A stretch of DNA of 55,639 nt from Candidatus Gastranaerophilales bacterium. GTDB taxonomy: Bacteria; Cyanobacteriota; Vampirovibrionia; Gastranaerophilales; Gastranaerophilaceae. Below are positions 40,171-53,170 of the stretch, piece by piece. The notes below the pieces were generated by a model that was not told where the DNA came from, searched no databases, and worked only from the letters and a program-made list of their open reading frames with translations. Numbering within the stretch: position 1 is the first letter of the stretch; each line of letters starts with the position of its first letter. Made by a program: the position numbers and the translations under genes. The stretch covers positions 1 through 55,639 of the forward strand of contig CALVBV010000002.1 of the NCBI GenBank assembly GCA_944325815.1, written 5' to 3'.

Positions 40171-40297
40171 AATTTTAGGATATTAAAATTTGTAACAATT
40201 TTGCTGATTTTAGCCCTTAAAACAGCAAAATTTTTCCTGTTTATTTTTTTTAATAGTATGATTAAATATACGGAATTAGGAAGTGAAGGTGTTGTGT

Positions 40298-42289
40298 ATG
40301 AAAAACCTTAAGAGAAAAATATCAGCAATCGTTTTAAGTATAGCATTTGTTTCAATGCAGTCTGCTTTTGCTGTAATAGAAACCGGCCTTGGCGGCGGCT
40401 CTAATATTAACAATGTTACCGGTGGTTATGCAGGTATAGACGGGGCAGGCACAGGCAATGTAGATTTAAATTTTAACGGAAACGCCCACGTTAACTGGGA
40501 TACATTAAATGTGAACAAAGGTGAAAGTTTAAATTTTAATGCCGTAAACGGCGCCAACAACCTTACAATTTTAAATACCGTTAATCATGGCATGTCAACA
40601 ATCAGCGGCCAAATAAGCGCTAACAGCGGCATCGGGCAGTTAATTATTTCAAACCCGAACGGTGTACTCTTCGACGGGTGCCAGTTTACAACTGCCGGTG
40701 ATTTGATGGTTACAACACAAGATATGTCCGGTATGAATGTTAACGACCTTTCTAATGCAAAATTTACACAAATCTATGATAACAACGGAAATCTCATCGG
40801 CATAGATATAAAAAACGGCGCAACATTTACTATTGGCGGAGAATACAGTGTTTTAGCACCATCTGTTAATATTGCAAACTCAACAATCAAGGCAGATTCT
40901 GTAAGACTTGTTACAGCGAACGGACAGGATTATCTTGCTTTAGGCGCTAAAGTCCCGACAGACAAACCCGTTGTAAGAATGGAAGCTGTTGACATCGACG
41001 GTGATGTATACATTCAGGCAGGCCCGGGCAAAGTCCATACTGTAAGCGGAGGAAACATTAAAGGTAATCTTACTGTTAACTCTGAAGACAGAGTTGCATT
41101 AAACTATAACGATAATGGCAAAAAATTGGTAGTAACAGGCGATACAAATGTAACAGCAAACGGCGAATATTTGTTCCTTAGAAATGCAGAAATCGGAGGA
41201 AACCTCGCTATGACAAACGGAGGCGGATTCCTTGATGTCGGAGATTTGACTGTTACCGGAGGCGCAATTCTTAAGACTACCGACCTCTCCCAGGGTTCTT
41301 ACAGACACTTTGTTCACGTAATCGGCGATACTGTAATCGGCGGAGACTTGATTATTGATTCTCTAAATAACATTCATATCGGCGGATATGATTATGATGC
41401 AATTAAACTCGCAGACGGAAGCTTGACTGTAGGCGGTGCAATCGATGCTTATGCAGATTACGGTACAATTGCGGTTACTATTGATACAACCGCTGATACT
41501 ATTAAACTGACATCTAATCAATTAAATATTATAACAGACGGCAAAGCTTTGATGACAGCTAATGACTATCAGTTTAAGGCTAACGGTTATATAGGAGGAC
41601 TCGGAACAACTGCAAACTCTACTTCCGATGCTCAGGTAAGATATGTAATGGAAGAATATAAACTCTTAAATAATCCTCAAAGCCATACTTATGCAAATAT
41701 TGCAGGCGGTACTGTTTCCAATATAGAAACAAACGCAAATGCTTATATTGACTCCAAAGGTAATATGAATTTAACCGGCGCCAACGCAAATAATATTTAC
41801 ATCGGCTCAGATAAAGATATTACAATCTTAGGCGACGGAGTTCATGCTAATAATATTACAGTTGCAGGCAAAACTGATAACTTAACAGTTGAAACCGGTG
41901 CAAACAGCAGAGACTATACCCTCAAATACACAAATATCCGTGATGCCAAAGAAATCACAATTGATAAGTCAACAGAGATTACTTACGATATGGCAAACGG
42001 TAAAAACGGCTGGAACATAAGAGACCCGAGACCGGAAAACACAACATACCTTGTTGTAAGAGGAAATGAACCAAATCCAAACCCGGATCCTGATCCAACA
42101 CCGATTCCGGATGGCAATGAAAACGCTAAAGTACTAAGAAGCTATGAAAACCAATCTGTTAACATGGCTCAAGTATATACCCCGGTTGCTTATGCAGCAG
42201 ATTTGGACGACGACCAGATTGACAGAGGGGTCAGAAAGAATGTTGACGGTTCCGTAACTGTTGTAAGAGCCTTCCCGATGGTTAACTAA
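40298..42289 (+). CDS. FHA-type haemagglutination-domain secreted protein A
   Basis: A 663-aa protein. The ATG at 40298 is set by its paralogue, which starts MKNLKRK. It has a signal peptide (to about residue 25, SMQSAFA) and the TPS/FHA haemagglutination domain: LNFNGNAHVNWDTLNVNKGE and LIISNPNGVLFDG, with the NPNG motif. A repetitive beta-helix follows to about residue 590, then a Pro/Asn/Asp linker and a conserved tail (AQVYTPVAYAADL, KNVDGSVTVVRAFP). No TpsB transporter or autotransporter barrel is nearby. Surface or extracellular location is inferred. Confidence 0.88.
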   Translation: MKNLKRKISAIVLSIAFVSMQSAFAVIETGLGGGSNINNVTGGYAGIDGAGTGNVDLNFNGNAHVNWDTLNVNKGESLNFNAVNGANNLTILNTVNHGMSTISGQISANSGIGQLIISNPNGVLFDGCQFTTAGDLMVTTQDMSGMNVNDLSNAKFTQIYDNNGNLIGIDIKNGATFTIGGEYSVLAPSVNIANSTIKADSVRLVTANGQDYLALGAKVPTDKPVVRMEAVDIDGDVYIQAGPGKVHTVSGGNIKGNLTVNSEDRVALNYNDNGKKLVVTGDTNVTANGEYLFLRNAEIGGNLAMTNGGGFLDVGDLTVTGGAILKTTDLSQGSYRHFVHVIGDTVIGGDLIIDSLNNIHIGGYDYDAIKLADGSLTVGGAIDAYADYGTIAVTIDTTADTIKLTSNQLNIITDGKALMTANDYQFKANGYIGGLGTTANSTSDAQVRYVMEEYKLLNNPQSHTYANIAGGTVSNIETNANAYIDSKGNMNLTGANANNIYIGSDKDITILGDGVHANNITVAGKTDNLTVETGANSRDYTLKYTNIRDAKEITIDKSTEITYDMANGKNGWNIRDPRPENTTYLVVRGNEPNPNPDPDPTPIPDGNENAKVLRSYENQSVNMAQVYTPVAYAADLDDDQIDRGVRKNVDGSVTVVRAFPMVN

Positions 42290-42307
42290 TTATTTTAAAT
42301 AATGTTT

Positions 42308-42341
42308 AAAAAACTTCCGCCTGAAAAACGGAAGTTTTTTT
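42308..42341 (+). terminator. Terminator between the two FHA-like genes
   Basis: The stem AAAAAACTTCCG/CGGAAGTTTTTT with a loop of about 9 nt is followed by a T-run. The two paralogues are therefore separate transcription units. Confidence 0.88.
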
Positions 42342-42399
42342 AGTTTGCAGAAATTTTTCAATTTTTCGACATTTTCTTCCCCTCTTTTTGTTACAATGC

Positions 42400-42429
42400 T
42401 TTACAAAAAAGCAATTTTTCTCTTATAAA
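42400..42429 (+). promoter_or_regulatory. Candidate promoter of FHA-like gene B
   Basis: TTTACA (42400-42405), an 18-bp spacer and TATAAA (42424-42429) lie about 42 nt before the ATG. Confidence 0.45.
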
Positions 42430-42470
42430 AAACTTTTATATATATAAGGCGATTAAAAGAGGATAAATAT

Positions 42471-44468
42471 ATGAAAAATTTGAAGAGAAAATTGTCAGCA
42501 TTAGCATTAACAGCAGTATTTGCTTCAATGCAGTTAACATCATTTGCAGCTATTGATACCGGATTAGGCGCAGGAAACGGCGGCGCGGTAATCAATAATG
42601 CAACCGGCGGGTTTCAAGGTGCAACTGGGATTGGAACAGGTAATGTTGATTTGAATTTTAACGGCAGCGCTCACGTAAACTGGGATTCATTAAACGTTAA
42701 CCGGGGTGAATCATTAAACTTTAATGCTGTAAACGGCGCAAACGGATTAACAATTTTAAATACAGTAAATCACGGAATGTCGACAATCAGCGGTCAGATA
42801 AATGCCAACAACGGTATTAAACAATTAATTATTTCTAACCCGAACGGTATGTTATTTGACGGCACGCAGTTCAGCGCAGCAGGGGATGTAATGTTAACAA
42901 CCCAACCTATGACAGCAACATTTGTTGACGGAAGAATGGATGTTTCCAAAGTTGCAACAACAAATCCTGTTGGCATTATAACTATACAGGATGCTAATTT
43001 CAGTGTTGGCGGCGAATTTAATATTTTGGCACCTTCTGTTAATGTAGTAGCAAGCACAATCAACACAACTAACGGTTTAAAATTAATAACAGCTAACGGT
43101 CAGGATTATTTATCAGCAGGAAATGTTGATGTACAAGACGCAGTAAGACTTGAAGCTGTTGAAATTGATGGAGATGTTTACATTATTGCAGATAAAGGTA
43201 TCGTTAAAACGGTTGGCGGCGGTACAATCAACGGTAATTTAAATATTCAATCAGATGACAGCGTTGCTTTAAACTATGTCGCAGATGGTAAAGCTTTACA
43301 TATCAAAGGTGATGCCAATGTTAAAGGCAACGGAGTTATGATGTATGCGAGAAATACCAAAGTCGACGGAAATTTATCAATGGAAAATGGCGGAGGTTTC
43401 CTTGAAGTCGGCAATGTTCAGGTCGGAAAAGATATGAACCTCAAAACAACAAAGGTTTCCGAAAATCCACAGGGTTACAAACACTTTGTACACGTAATCG
43501 GCAACACTAAAGTCGGCGGAAATTTGAACATTGATTCTGTCAACAACATTCACATCGGTAACTACAATTACGAAGAAGGCGTCCTTCTGGAAGGCAGTCT
43601 TACAGTAGGCGGGGCTATTGATGCGATAGCACATGACGGTCATATTGGTGTAACAATAAATACAAGCGCTGATAAAATCAGCTTAAAATCTGAAAATCTT
43701 AATATCTTAACAGACGGAAAAGCAGTATTGAGTGCTAATGAATATAAATTCTCATCCAAAGGATACATCGGCGGTATAAGCGATACTTCTAAATTTATTA
43801 ACTCAATGGAAGATTATACATTCTATCCGGCAGATGCCCCGTCATACTTAAATATCGCAGGCGGAATTGTTTCCCAGATAGAGACAGAAGGCAAAGCATA
43901 TATCGCATCTTACGGTGATATGGATGTAACAGGCGTAAATGCAAATGAGCTTTACCTGACAGCTTACGGCAAAAATATAACAATTCTTGGTGACACAATT
44001 CACGCAAATGTAATCAATGTCGGAGGCGAAACAGATAAATTAAGAGTTGCATTTGACGGCAGAGACTACACTTTGAAATACACAAACATCAGAGATGCAA
44101 AAGAAGTAACAATCAACGGTACAGATAAGATTACTTATGAATTAACAAACGGTGAAAACGGATATAACGTAAGAGACCCGAGACCGGAAAACACAACATA
44201 CCTTGTAGGTCCTGATAAAGAAATAGAGCCTACTCCGGAACCTGAACCGGAACCGACTCCGGAACCAACACCAAATCCTGATTTACCGGATGGCAATGAA
44301 AACGTTAAGGTTCTCGACAGTTATCAGGATCAGTCGGTAAATCTGGCTCAAGTATACACTCCGGTAGCTTATGCAGCCGACTTGGAAGATGACCAGATAG
44401 ACAAAGGGGTCCGCAAAAACGTAGACGGCTCGGTAACAGTCGTAAGAGCATATCCGATGGGTAAATAA
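42471..44468 (+). CDS. FHA-type haemagglutination-domain secreted protein B (paralogue of A)
   Basis: A 665-aa protein with the same layout as the upstream paralogue: signal peptide (to about residue 28), FHA domain with NPNGMLFDG, beta-helix and Pro-Glu-rich linker (EPTPEPEPEPTPEPTPN). It ends in the same type of tail, with AQVYTPVAYAADL and KNVDGSVTVVRAYP. Similarity is high throughout, pointing to tandem duplication. The Pro/Glu linker is longer than in A. Identity of the tail suggests a fixed function such as retention at the surface, which is inference. Confidence 0.88.
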   Translation: MKNLKRKLSALALTAVFASMQLTSFAAIDTGLGAGNGGAVINNATGGFQGATGIGTGNVDLNFNGSAHVNWDSLNVNRGESLNFNAVNGANGLTILNTVNHGMSTISGQINANNGIKQLIISNPNGMLFDGTQFSAAGDVMLTTQPMTATFVDGRMDVSKVATTNPVGIITIQDANFSVGGEFNILAPSVNVVASTINTTNGLKLITANGQDYLSAGNVDVQDAVRLEAVEIDGDVYIIADKGIVKTVGGGTINGNLNIQSDDSVALNYVADGKALHIKGDANVKGNGVMMYARNTKVDGNLSMENGGGFLEVGNVQVGKDMNLKTTKVSENPQGYKHFVHVIGNTKVGGNLNIDSVNNIHIGNYNYEEGVLLEGSLTVGGAIDAIAHDGHIGVTINTSADKISLKSENLNILTDGKAVLSANEYKFSSKGYIGGISDTSKFINSMEDYTFYPADAPSYLNIAGGIVSQIETEGKAYIASYGDMDVTGVNANELYLTAYGKNITILGDTIHANVINVGGETDKLRVAFDGRDYTLKYTNIRDAKEVTINGTDKITYELTNGENGYNVRDPRPENTTYLVGPDKEIEPTPEPEPEPTPEPTPNPDLPDGNENVKVLDSYQDQSVNLAQVYTPVAYAADLEDDQIDKGVRKNVDGSVTVVRAYPMGK

Positions 44469-49356: not shown

Positions 49357-49967
49357 ATATACTGGCTTTTGACACATGTCTTGATAAAACATATATAACA
49401 CTCGCAGACGATGAGAAAGTTGTAAAAAGCGAGGTAATTTTATCTGATGGAGAAAACTACCATTCTGCATATCTGATTTCAACTATAGTTAAAATCTTAA
49501 AAGAAGCTGGGCTTACTCCAAAGGATTTGGATATGATAGCAACTGATATCGGTCCGGGAAGTTTTACCGGAATCCGTGCTTGTGTAACCGTTGCAAAGGT
49601 TCTTGCTCAGCAGCTTGATATTAAGGCTGTCGGAGTTTCTTCGCTTGAAATTTTATCAAAAATTCTTGGCGGAGATGATATGGTTACGCTGGATGCAAGA
49701 AAAAATAAAGCATACGTCTATGACGGCAAAATCCTGGGGACAGTAGAATTAGAAGAGGTCGATCAAATAGTTAAAGGCCGAACGCTTATTACTGACAATA
49801 GCTTGCTCGAAAGATTCAGCCAATATACGGATAAGGCCGTTTCGTACCAGCAGGATAATTATCCGATAGGAGAAATCCTTGCAAAGCTCGCTTTATCAAA
49901 GCAGGAAACTGACTGGAGAAAACTAAAACCGCTTTATATTCAGCCGCCTCCGGTTTTCGGACGATGA
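49353..49967 (+). CDS. tsaB: tRNA threonylcarbamoyladenosine protein TsaB
   Basis: A 204-aa protein starting at TTG: NILAFDTCLDKTYI, then IATDIGPGSFTGIRACVTVAK. This is the ASKHA-fold N-terminal part of TsaB, the dimerisation partner of TsaD. Translational coupling to tsaE explains the weak start. It overlaps the convergent 478-aa gene by 28 bp. tsaD is not in this window. Confidence 0.93.
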   Translation: MNILAFDTCLDKTYITLADDEKVVKSEVILSDGENYHSAYLISTIVKILKEAGLTPKDLDMIATDIGPGSFTGIRACVTVAKVLAQQLDIKAVGVSSLEILSKILGGDDMVTLDARKNKAYVYDGKILGTVELEEVDQIVKGRTLITDNSLLERFSQYTDKAVSYQQDNYPIGEILAKLALSKQETDWRKLKPLYIQPPPVFGR

Positions 49968-51376
49968 TACAGATTTTCATAAACCGAAAGACGTTTTTTT
50001 AAGTCCCCAAAGTCTTTCAGATACATATACACTGCCTCGTGAGAATCTTTTGGGAGATTATACATGTTGTGCGAAAAAGGTTTGAATCCGTATCTTAGAT
50101 ACATAAGATATGGCGGCTTTTTAACTCCGTTGTATCCGAGCGCTTTTACAAACACCGGCGCACAATCTTTTTTTACAAGAAGTTTCATAAGTTCATAGCC
50201 GGCAATTTTTCCGGCATTGTTATAAACTTCTGGCTTATTATTAAAAAAGCTGTTTATATACGTGTAGTATTTTGAATTGACAGCGATTTCATTTACTGCC
50301 GAATCATTTATTATATTATTTTTTTCAATCCAATTTTTTGATTCTTTAGTATTTAAAACAGAAAACTGTATTCCTGAAATCAGGGCATCTGCTTCTGATA
50401 AAATCCTGTGTTTTGCACCGGCGTTCAACTCATTAAGCTCTTCTTTATCAAAACTTGGCGGAAAATTATAAGATTTATTCTTAAGCTTTAATACATCATA
50501 TACCATAATATTATGTGATTTACCAAAATCAGAAAAGACAACTATTGCCGGAATCACTCTGCCGTCTTTCGTATTGACCGAAACATTATCTATAATAAGC
50601 CCTAATCCGTTTATATAATCTCCTTTTTTATCAGAAACGACAGGCGCAAAACAAAGAGCTTCCAAGTCTTTAGTAAAAACTCCTTTTTGTTTTTGCAGAT
50701 TATTCAAGGCCTCATAAGAAACAGCAAGTTTCTTCATCCTGCAAAACTCTTTGTCAGAAAACCCTCCTGCAAAATCGGCATCTTTTCGAAGCAAGAAAGC
50801 ATTCATCCTATCAAAGATTTCACTTTTTTTTAACAAAATATCTTCTATTTGAAATTTATTATATTTTTTCTCTTCTTTTTTTATACTCAACAAGTCACGG
50901 GTATTGAACTCACCGGTAAGATTCAAGATTTTATCTTTTGGATGAACATACAGACTCCCTTTGAGTACAGGATTTTGAATACCGTAATCAGTATCAAACC
51001 AATTGCTGTAAGGCGCAGGTGCAAGATTTGGATTATCTTTATTCTTTATTTTATTTATCGCATACAAAACGAGATTATTTTTCTTTATCTTCTTTTGTAT
51101 AGACGGAGTGAACTCTTCACGGCTTTGCGCAAGTTTAAAACATTCTTCAATATAACGCTGTTTTAATAAATCCAAATCCTTGCCTTCCAATTTTTTAACC
51201 AATTTATCAACAGCTTTCAAATCCTCTTTTGAATATCCTCCGGATACTGAAGCAAGTTTTTGGTAAACATTTATTTTACTCAGACTAAAACTATCTGCAG
51301 GTACAGAAAAGGTAAACCTTTTCACAACTCTGGTAATCACATTTTGAAAATTTACCGGCAGGAATTGAACTTTCAT
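49940..51376 (-). CDS. Hypothetical lineage-specific protein (MKVQFLPVNFQ type)
   Basis: A 478-aa mostly helical, lysine-rich protein. The N-terminus MKVQFLPVNFQNVITRVVKR resembles that of the 298-aa protein at 10833. The C-terminal part (LRYGFKPFSHNMYNLPKDSH) has a weak resemblance to the end of a GNAT fold, not enough for a call. No signal peptide. It is divergent from the RiPP operon with 90 bp between starts, so a shared regulatory region is possible. It might be part of that system, but no motif supports this. Confidence 0.6.
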   Translation of the reverse strand: MKVQFLPVNFQNVITRVVKRFTFSVPADSFSLSKINVYQKLASVSGGYSKEDLKAVDKLVKKLEGKDLDLLKQRYIEECFKLAQSREEFTPSIQKKIKKNNLVLYAINKIKNKDNPNLAPAPYSNWFDTDYGIQNPVLKGSLYVHPKDKILNLTGEFNTRDLLSIKKEEKKYNKFQIEDILLKKSEIFDRMNAFLLRKDADFAGGFSDKEFCRMKKLAVSYEALNNLQKQKGVFTKDLEALCFAPVVSDKKGDYINGLGLIIDNVSVNTKDGRVIPAIVVFSDFGKSHNIMVYDVLKLKNKSYNFPPSFDKEELNELNAGAKHRILSEADALISGIQFSVLNTKESKNWIEKNNIINDSAVNEIAVNSKYYTYINSFFNNKPEVYNNAGKIAGYELMKLLVKKDCAPVFVKALGYNGVKKPPYLMYLRYGFKPFSHNMYNLPKDSHEAVYMYLKDFGDLKKRLSVYENLYHRPKTGGG

Positions 51377-51415
51377 ACCTTACATAAACCCCCAAAAATA
51401 ATAAATTTGCTATTA

Positions 51416-51443
51416 TTGACACACCTCCTTTAACATGTAAAAT
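51416..51443 (+). promoter_or_regulatory. Strong promoter of the RiPP operon
   Basis: TTGACA (51416-51421, perfect -35), a 16-bp spacer and TAAAAT (51438-51443) with TG directly before the -10. Expected start about 51450, leaving a leader of ~17 nt that holds AAAGGAG 6 nt before the ATG. Confidence 0.75.
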
Positions 51444-51466
51444 CAAAAAGGAAAAAGGAGTTTATT

Positions 51467-51694
51467 ATGTTTGTACCAAAAATTCAGAGTAAAACAACTG
51501 CATTTATGCCTATGATGGACAAATCAGCCGTCAAAGTATCTGATGCAGCAAAAAAACTTAGTGAAGTAAAGTTTGATATACTTCCCAAAAGGGCAGTAAG
51601 CGACCCTCAGAAAGATTCTTTTGTAAGAAAATGTGCTTACGGCGACAATCCTGATGGTGAATGCTTTAGTGCATACGGCGGATTTGTCTGCTAA
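51467..51694 (+). CDS. Candidate RiPP precursor peptide
   Basis: A 75-aa peptide. The N-terminal ~50 residues form a charged leader (MFVPKIQSKTTAFMPMMDKS, then KVSDAAKKLSEVKFDILPKR). The C-terminal core has three Cys (56, 66, 75; spacing C-x9-C-x8-C, the last being the terminal residue) among Gly, Asp, Tyr and Phe. AYG occurs twice (57-59, 69-71). It has an excellent ribosome site and its own promoter. Its TAA overlaps the next gene's ATG (TAATG). The maturase and recognition gene next door make a precursor role likely. The exact leader-core cut and the modified residues are unknown; Lys-Arg (41-42) and Arg-Lys (54-55) are possible sites. Confidence 0.78.
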   Translation: MFVPKIQSKTTAFMPMMDKSAVKVSDAAKKLSEVKFDILPKRAVSDPQKDSFVRKCAYGDNPDGECFSAYGGFVC

Positions 51695-51966
51695 TGAAAC
51701 TCAAGCTTGCAAAGTATACATTAAAGAAATACGAGCCCAAATTGGGTTTGTATTTCTTTTATAATGCAAAAAATAAATCCTTTTGGAATTGTGATTACCC
51801 GACAGGCTCTGTGATAAGCACACTTGACGGAACTATAAACACCGATGAAGTCATCAGAATTATTGCATCTAACAATCCCGGCTTTTCAAAAGCAGAATTT
51901 GAAGAAGTATTTACGGAAATTTTCAACTTTCTTCTAAAGGAGGAGTTTCTTGTCTGTGCTGATTGA
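51694..51966 (+). CDS. PqqD-like RiPP recognition element protein
   Basis: A 90-aa protein of PqqD type. The pattern TGSVISTLDGTINTDEVIRI, followed by FEEVFTEIFNFLLKEEFL, matches the winged-helix PqqD/RRE domain, which binds leader peptides and presents them to the maturase. It stands free rather than fused to the radical SAM enzyme. It starts in the precursor stop codon (TAATG) and overlaps the maturase start by 17 nt. Confidence 0.8.
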   Translation: MKLKLAKYTLKKYEPKLGLYFFYNAKNKSFWNCDYPTGSVISTLDGTINTDEVIRIIASNNPGFSKAEFEEVFTEIFNFLLKEEFLVCAD

Positions 51967-53170
51967 TAAAGAGTATGAAGAAGCAATAAGATTCTATCTT
52001 GATAAGGTCTTAACCTCTCCGGATGATTTGAATGAAGCCGGTGAAGACAGACTGGATTTGAATGTCGTTAAACCTTTTACAAAATATATAACCGAAAAAT
52101 CACCGGATAAATTTTTATTCTCAACCCCGATGTTTGCCTGGTGGAATTTAACTTCTGCCTGTAATCTAAGGTGTGTACACTGCCTATATAATGAAACAGA
52201 ATACACCGCCTCAAACGATTTAACCGCAGAGGAAGCTATGAGGGTTGCAGATGAACTCATAAACGATATGGGTATTGTCGAAGTCTTACTAAGCGGCGGC
52301 GAGATTTTCCTCAGAAAAGATTTGCTAAATATTGTCAAAAAATTTAAAGATAACAATGTCGCTGTTAAACTAATGACCAACGCCCTTTTAATTCAGAATA
52401 AAGATATTGAAACGCTGTCAGAACTGTTTAATCCGTATACGGACGTTGTGCAAATCAGCCTTGACGGATCAACGGAAAAGACTTTTAAATCAATCCGCGG
52501 GACTGATAATTTTGAAAAACTAACTGCAAATATTAAAAAGCTTACCTCAAAAGGTATAAGAGTAACTGCCGTATGCACGGTAAATAAACTTAATATAAAT
52601 GAGGTTATTGAAACATATAAACTCGCCGAGAAACTCGGTGTTACTGATTTTTCCGCAGGGAAAACCGTCTGCTACAATGAAAGCCATAAAAAACTCATTG
52701 TGCCGGATCGGGAACTTATGATTCTGGCATCAAAACTCTTGAAAGAAAAATCTTCAACATATCTTAAGCTTGCATTGTTTCAGCCCGTAGAATTATTGAA
52801 TATACCGGAAGTTGAGGAAATTATGAAGGAGGAGAAATACCAAAAAATTATCCGAAAATATACCATAGACCCTCCTCGTTCCTGCAATCTTCATGACAGA
52901 TTGTGTGTATTCTCTGACGGCAATGTATCTATGTGCCTCCACACTGACTGTAAAAACACCCTGCTCGGAAATGTCCACGAAAATTCTCTTACAGAGATTT
53001 GGCAGAGAAGAGAAAAGAATCTTTTTTTTCAGCCCAGACTGACGGAAAACATGCCCTGCAAAGCATGCAAATATAACAAAATCTGCAACAGCGGATGCAT
53101 GGCAAAAGCTTATAGCAAATTCGGCACAATAAATATGCCAGAGCTTGAATGTAAACATTTTCCCCAATAG
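51950..53170 (+). CDS. Radical SAM/SPASM RiPP maturase
   Basis: A 406-aa protein starting at TTG with AAAGGAGGAG upstream. The radical SAM cluster is CNLRCVHC (C71, C75, C78), followed by LLSGGEIFLRKDL, the SAM-binding GGE motif. The SPASM region has a full Cys set: C312, C319, C329, C334 and CKACKYNKICNSGC (C370-C383) plus C401, enough for two auxiliary [4Fe-4S] clusters. Such enzymes make thioether or C-C/C-O crosslinks in peptides. The 17-nt overlap and operon position pair it with the PqqD-like protein and the precursor. The chemistry cannot be told from the sequence alone. Confidence 0.88.
   Translation: MSVLIDKEYEEAIRFYLDKVLTSPDDLNEAGEDRLDLNVVKPFTKYITEKSPDKFLFSTPMFAWWNLTSACNLRCVHCLYNETEYTASNDLTAEEAMRVADELINDMGIVEVLLSGGEIFLRKDLLNIVKKFKDNNVAVKLMTNALLIQNKDIETLSELFNPYTDVVQISLDGSTEKTFKSIRGTDNFEKLTANIKKLTSKGIRVTAVCTVNKLNINEVIETYKLAEKLGVTDFSAGKTVCYNESHKKLIVPDRELMILASKLLKEKSSTYLKLALFQPVELLNIPEVEEIMKEEKYQKIIRKYTIDPPRSCNLHDRLCVFSDGNVSMCLHTDCKNTLLGNVHENSLTEIWQRREKNLFFQPRLTENMPCKACKYNKICNSGCMAKAYSKFGTINMPELECKHFPQ

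Follow-up and report, generated by a model that had tools for sequence, protein, structure and literature searches.

A four-gene radical SAM peptide cassette of gut Gastranaerophilales that probably makes a cross-linked peptide of an undescribed family

The combination of a small peptide, a PqqD protein and a radical SAM (rSAM) enzyme with a SPASM domain is a general kind of RiPP (modified peptide) system that is already known: in these families PqqD presents the leader of the precursor and the rSAM enzyme modifies its core. To our knowledge, the reaction that a SPASM enzyme performs cannot be read from its sequence. Among described systems, mycofactocin is encoded by MftA, MftB and MftC in the order peptide, binding protein of ~90 amino acids (aa) and rSAM-SPASM enzyme. 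Its precursors end in an invariant C-terminal Cys-Gly-Val-Tyr (PMC3023750), and for thioether-forming enzymes the SPASM cluster has been proposed to bind the donor Cys (PMC8326336).

We analysed positions 1 to 55,639 of the forward strand of contig CALVBV010000002.1, from Candidatus Gastranaerophilales bacterium GCA_944325815.1; this whole 55,639-nt stretch is the window, and positions below refer to it. Gastranaerophilales live in animal guts and are related to cyanobacteria; in the open-licence literature we found no paper that connects this group with RiPPs or with peptide chemistry of the radical SAM kind. We consider it fairly probable that a four-gene unit in this window makes a RiPP of an undescribed family whose core is cross-linked, probably by thioether, and that the product of its fourth gene, ORF4, tailors the peptide or protects its producer. 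The unit has the following features:

49968..53170, no strand: whole cassette, the interval missing from the equivalent locus in seven genomes of the same genus
49940..51376, minus strand: ORF4, 478 aa, a lineage-specific partner with a C-terminal region weakly acetyltransferase-like (GNAT)
51416..51443, plus strand: sigma-70-like promoter TTGACA-16-TAAAAT, a consensus match only
51441-51412, minus strand: promoter-like site for ORF4, overlapping the plus-strand site, likewise a consensus match only
51456..51460, plus strand: Shine-Dalgarno AGGAG of the precursor gene, as read from the sequence
51467..51694, plus strand: precursor peptide gene, 75 aa, with leader at about residues 1-50 and core at about 51-75
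51662..51691, plus strand: conserved core end Cys66-x3-Tyr70 ... Cys75, a pattern common to the L007, L025 and L055 precursors
51694..51966, plus strand: PqqD-family leader-binding protein (RiPP recognition element), 90 aa, assigned from homologs that match PF05402 and from maturase fusions
51936..51945, plus strand: Shine-Dalgarno AAAGGAGGAG of the maturase gene, as read from the sequence
51950..53170, plus strand: radical SAM/SPASM maturase, 406 aa, PF04055 and PF13186
52160..52183, plus strand: CxxxCxxC of the SAM-binding cluster (C71, C75, C78), invariant in alignments A1 and A2
52883..53152, plus strand: seven-Cys SPASM region (C312 to C401) with two predicted auxiliary Fe-S clusters, invariant in alignment A2

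The initial annotation had described three of these genes as a translationally coupled operon behind a strong promoter. Coupling is borne out: a TAATG junction joins the precursor gene to that of the small protein, and a 17-nt overlap leads into the maturase gene, which starts with TTG preceded by its AAAGGAGGAG site. The three genes lie as placed, but the divergent ORF4, outside the stretch then considered, belongs to the unit too. As for the promoter, the site matches 11 of 12 consensus positions, but the region overall is just mildly enriched in such sites (12 versus 7.8 +/- 2.9 in shuffles).

The limits of the unit are set by an empty site. In seven genomes of the same genus (L142, L143, L145, L156, L161, L162 and L164), tsaE, tsaB and a SEC-C gene are directly adjacent, with a gap of ~75-125 bp between tsaB and SEC-C where the window has 3.2 kb. 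Global alignment with L142 and L143 puts the right border at 53170, the stop codon of the maturase gene, and the left border at 49952-49966, the end of tsaB; the genes for precursor, PqqD and maturase together with ORF4 make up the whole of the inserted interval. The four genes are one unit of gain and loss, of ordinary G+C content (0.352 versus 0.365). We had considered the downstream SEC-C gene as a possible part of the cassette and ruled it out: 63 of 65 genomes of the genus carry it, whether or not they have a cassette. Elsewhere in the window, at 40283-44468, two consecutive proteins of 665-668 aa have near-identical signal-like N-termini and are apparently tandem duplicates.

The closest named records are Candidatus Gastranaerophilales metagenome-assembled genomes. 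The maturase group was found in 13 of 288 family genomes at E 1e-40, 13 of 65 genus genomes at 1e-30, 18 of 383 family genomes at 1e-60 and 13 of 382 class genomes at 1e-45, none of these last outside the family; cassettes occur sporadically within one bacterial family, and the maturase tree divides into the subfamily of the window and a number of cousin groups. Viral contigs contained no close relatives, and plasmids only rSAM enzymes of <60% identity, the top named match being a mycofactocin rSAM enzyme.

The precursor is the Cys-bearing 75-aa peptide first reported, with Cys56, Cys66 and Cys75 spaced as C-x9-C-x8-C and an FVC end. It is kept in two relatives (L005 and L006), with a dN/dS of 0.08-0.15, similar to that of its partner genes; by this measure the frame is under purifying selection and not a product of chance, and conservation of the peptide extends past this one strain. 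At all 24 cassettes for which upstream DNA was at hand, a small Cys-tailed peptide of 61-112 aa is encoded on the same strand; as a control, 136 other genes of this DNA were examined in a comparable way, and in 4 cases an upstream frame passed. Neither outcome that the initial annotation would have taken as refuting its RiPP reading was seen: homologous maturases all adjoin a small Cys-tailed peptide, and the peptide is kept in relatives. In L025 there are two precursors in tandem, and in L069 one precursor carries three tandem core copies (DSCGGMMSWSTHTAP), a classic RiPP arrangement. Enzymes of the rSAM/SPASM type such as AnSME do act on proteins, but the peptide's constant presence, its tandem duplications and the purifying selection on it make it very improbable that the 75-aa frame is not the substrate and that the maturase acts on another protein.

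Across precursors, Cys accounts for 52 of 720 residues within the last 30 positions and 3 of 1037 elsewhere, a descriptive count since some start codons were chosen by hand and the sequences are related. Within the window's subfamily the cores diverge, but the leader retains a stretch rich in Lys and Ala. Of the ten subfamily precursors listed, nine have Cys as the C-terminal residue; in the tenth, L029, Cys is penultimate. A Cys-x3-Tyr/Trp pattern ahead of the terminal Cys is common to four lineages (permutation p 0.014, seven offsets); L029 and many cousin precursors lack it. Cys56 occurs in the three closest species only. What the comparison of related precursors called for in the initial annotation leaves standing of its C-x9-C-x8-C pattern is therefore C-x3-[Y/W] and the C-terminal Cys; Cys56 is a local feature.

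Two other cassette arrangements depart from one enzyme per precursor. At L065:6798-10013 and L066:1942-5128, two tandem PqqD-rSAM fusions follow one precursor whose sole Cys is its last residue (YRQC), and at L083:6851-9447 and L084:600-3413, two maturases surround one PqqD, with a precursor ending WDGCGCEDWCTxLL.

The 90-aa protein, put forward earlier as a free-standing PqqD-like protein, has no Pfam match when taken alone; among its homologs, however, 15 of 24 match PF05402, and in four cases the homolog is fused to the maturase. Those matches and fusions are stronger grounds for the assignment than a single-sequence structure model, which gives a beta-beta-beta-alpha-alpha order at a pLDDT of only 62 and with which Foldseek found no match. 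On the homology evidence the protein is a PqqD-family leader-recognition element, with leader binding predicted.

The maturase matches Radical_SAM (PF04055, 9.6e-24) and SPASM (PF13186, 5.4e-9), and its Cys set is complete, as had been claimed: the CxxxCxxC motif and seven SPASM Cys (C312, C329, C370, C373, C379, C383 and C401), all ten invariant across 17 homologs. In NCBIfam it rises above no family cut-off, all scores falling far below: the best, over most of its length, is SynChlorMet ScmE (TIGR04250; 129.3 bits, cut-off 400), the second the mycofactocin rSAM enzyme (TIGR03962; 122.5 bits, cut-off 265), while WgkB scores 109 bits and PqqE 87 (cut-off 381); among sactipeptide and ranthipeptide families, neither SkfB (77.7 of 300 bits) nor StsB (101 of 625) reaches its cut-off. 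On these scores we ruled out membership of a known family. Among solved enzymes SkfB, a sactisynthase, comes closest by profile, which speaks for a thioether; AnSME, PqqE, SuiB and CteB match too. The earlier view that no class could be named is upheld by NCBIfam and by the literature searched, and its RiPP reading gains support from the peptide at 24 of 24 cassettes, the PqqD identity and the full rSAM/SPASM Cys set.

From the families of its parts, the unit's action can be sketched. The PqqD protein would bind the precursor leader and deliver the precursor to the maturase, which would generate a 5'-deoxyadenosyl radical and, with its SPASM clusters, cross-link the core. The thiol of a core Cys would most likely be joined to carbon in a neighbouring residue, for which the aromatic residue four positions on (Cys66-x3-Tyr70) is plausible, and the C-terminal Cys may serve as a second thioether donor. 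A thioether is our best guess because Cys is the sole residue found in every core and is single in several (L065, L066 and L012); since those have only one Cys, an internal disulfide cannot be its point. Leader removal and export would fall to genes elsewhere; no dedicated transporter or peptidase was seen.

The same RiPP cassette might instead produce a linkage of cyclophane or streptide type, the maturase making C-C or C-N bonds among aromatic or other side chains and Cys being otherwise used. Tyr or Trp lies near Cys in all window-clade cores, the L065 and L066 cores end in W-x3-Y-R-Q-C, and the scores against WgkB, a Lys-Trp linking enzyme, and PqqE point the same way; yet it is Cys, not an aromatic residue, that every core contains, and aromatic residues are missing altogether from one core, CGIDQCAI of L010, which leaves this chemistry unlikely. 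Lower still, and distinctly unlikely, we place a mycofactocin-like oxidative decarboxylation of the C-terminal Cys to an unsaturated thiol or ring, with a redox cofactor as product: the gene order, the rank of the mycofactocin enzyme among NCBIfam and named plasmid matches, the nine of ten subfamily precursors ending exactly in Cys and the invariant C-terminal motif of mycofactocin precursors (PMC3023750) speak for it, but the score is far under its cut-off, the cores of cousin precursors end in residues other than Cys, and core sequences vary greatly, unlike the conserved precursors of cofactors. Returning to the cross-linked peptide, we take its variable cores and patchy presence to suggest an exported competitive or signalling peptide and not a housekeeping cofactor: the product may be secreted and act against neighbouring cells or between them.

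ORF4, single-copy in its own genome, has homologs of 277-538 aa that adjoin 13 cassettes in divergent, upstream, downstream or convergent positions and are absent beside 11 of 24. Strong matches to its profile occur in 12 of 18 maturase-bearing family genomes and in none of 365 others (Fisher p 1e-18, counting related genomes as independent); the positive side of this contrast is partly by construction, the profile having been built from cassette neighbours, but the absence in 365 is not. A 386-genome sample of the phylum added no ORF4-bearing genome outside the family. G072, a cassette-free genome with no match to the maturase, retains just the decayed end of an ORF4, about its last 45 codons, next to the gene that is its neighbour in L074-L076 as well. 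Among the genomes searched, ORF4 is intact only alongside such peptide systems.

Pfam yields neither an acetyltransferase nor any other family match for ORF4, and PDB sequences none. Compared by hhalign with GNATs of its own genome set, it matches weakly (best probability 18%), although several share the expected motif A/B register; its structure model has a pLDDT of 37. A match to ElaD/SseL (E 0.015) was far below cut-off, came from two members only and was judged to be chance. ORF4 is perhaps an acetyltransferase-like tailoring or immunity protein, for which microcin C self-immunity through an acetyltransferase is a precedent; modifying the peptide or protecting the producer, perhaps by acetylation, would be the weakest step of the scheme. 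Its absence beside nearly half of the cassettes, its variable length and its lack of a known sequence family would also fit a mere passenger of this mobile unit, for instance an unrelated lineage-specific gene outside the peptide pathway. We hold that to be improbable, given the co-occurrence, its recurrence across distant branches of the maturase tree in varied gene orders, and an insertion that holds exactly these four genes.

Other genes were seen near cassettes. A Fic/DOC protein (L063:5967-7091) is the immediate neighbour of a window-subfamily cassette that lacks ORF4; a 590-595-aa protein, 50% identical between two cousin cassettes (L070:5042-6829 and L071:8536-10308) and without a Pfam match in L070, is a possible further component; and a 1796-aa protein with a flagellin-like N-terminus, judged by eye, adjoins a cassette (L072:1969-7359). 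Many proteins of the lineage, including several ORF4s and the L065 and L066 precursors, share what looks like an N-terminal signal: an M-x-[VI]..I start followed by an FxG motif (NFKG, SFGA, SFRG; examples at L074:8510, L075:7955, L076:633, L077:5095, L079:8798 and L081:6963). The genus also has a second rSAM system, in which a 343-aa rSAM/SPASM enzyme stands behind one or two proteins of 138-195 aa that terminate in GHYIFK or a similar sequence and in some cases have RYAGP-type repeats (L030:1027-2514 and L031:884-2511; on the reverse strand, L034:1055-2511 and L035:548-2514); the one such enzyme checked was above no NCBIfam family cut-off.

Neither Pfam, NCBIfam nor the open-licence literature searched describes the maturase family, the core pattern or ORF4, although an earlier description is possible. 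More broadly, though we would call it a tentative and somewhat unlikely extension, gut Gastranaerophilales may hold an unrecognised, lineage-wide repertoire of radical SAM RiPPs, with swapped units and hypervariable cores, a novel Cys-x3-aromatic link made by the enzyme of the window's subfamily, and ORF4, there a new protein family, completing or neutralising the product. Small, discrete cassettes that come and go, together with a new accessory gene, are readily usable for co-expression in the search for new peptide cross-links, and the family offers a way to ask what gut Gastranaerophilales use modified peptides for.

Set against known systems, the cassette combines familiar parts differently. 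It resembles SynChlorMet ScmE, its best NCBIfam match, over most of the maturase's length, at a score far from the 400-bit cut-off. With PqqA-PqqD-PqqE it shares a free-standing PqqD and a separate rSAM/SPASM enzyme, but the PqqE match is 87 bits against 381 and the window's core bears Cys. Like mycofactocin it has the order peptide, ~90-aa binding protein and rSAM-SPASM enzyme, and action near the peptide's C-terminus is conceivable; unlike mycofactocin, its maturase falls short of TIGR03962 (122.5 bits against 265), its precursor is larger, with a variable core ending FVC and not Cys-Gly-Val-Tyr, and the cassette includes ORF4, with further mycofactocin cluster genes not seen in it. The sactipeptide and ranthipeptide systems (SkfB, AlbA, CteB and PapB/freyrasin) likewise pair a leader-recognition domain with an rSAM enzyme carrying SPASM or twitch and have Cys in the core, SkfB being the best solved relative by profile; in the window, by contrast, the recognition domain is free-standing, Cys are few and every NCBIfam cut-off is missed. 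Where freyrasin has Cys-Asp links and SCIFF six Cys in 45 residues, the window's peptide has C-x3-aromatic and a C-terminal Cys.
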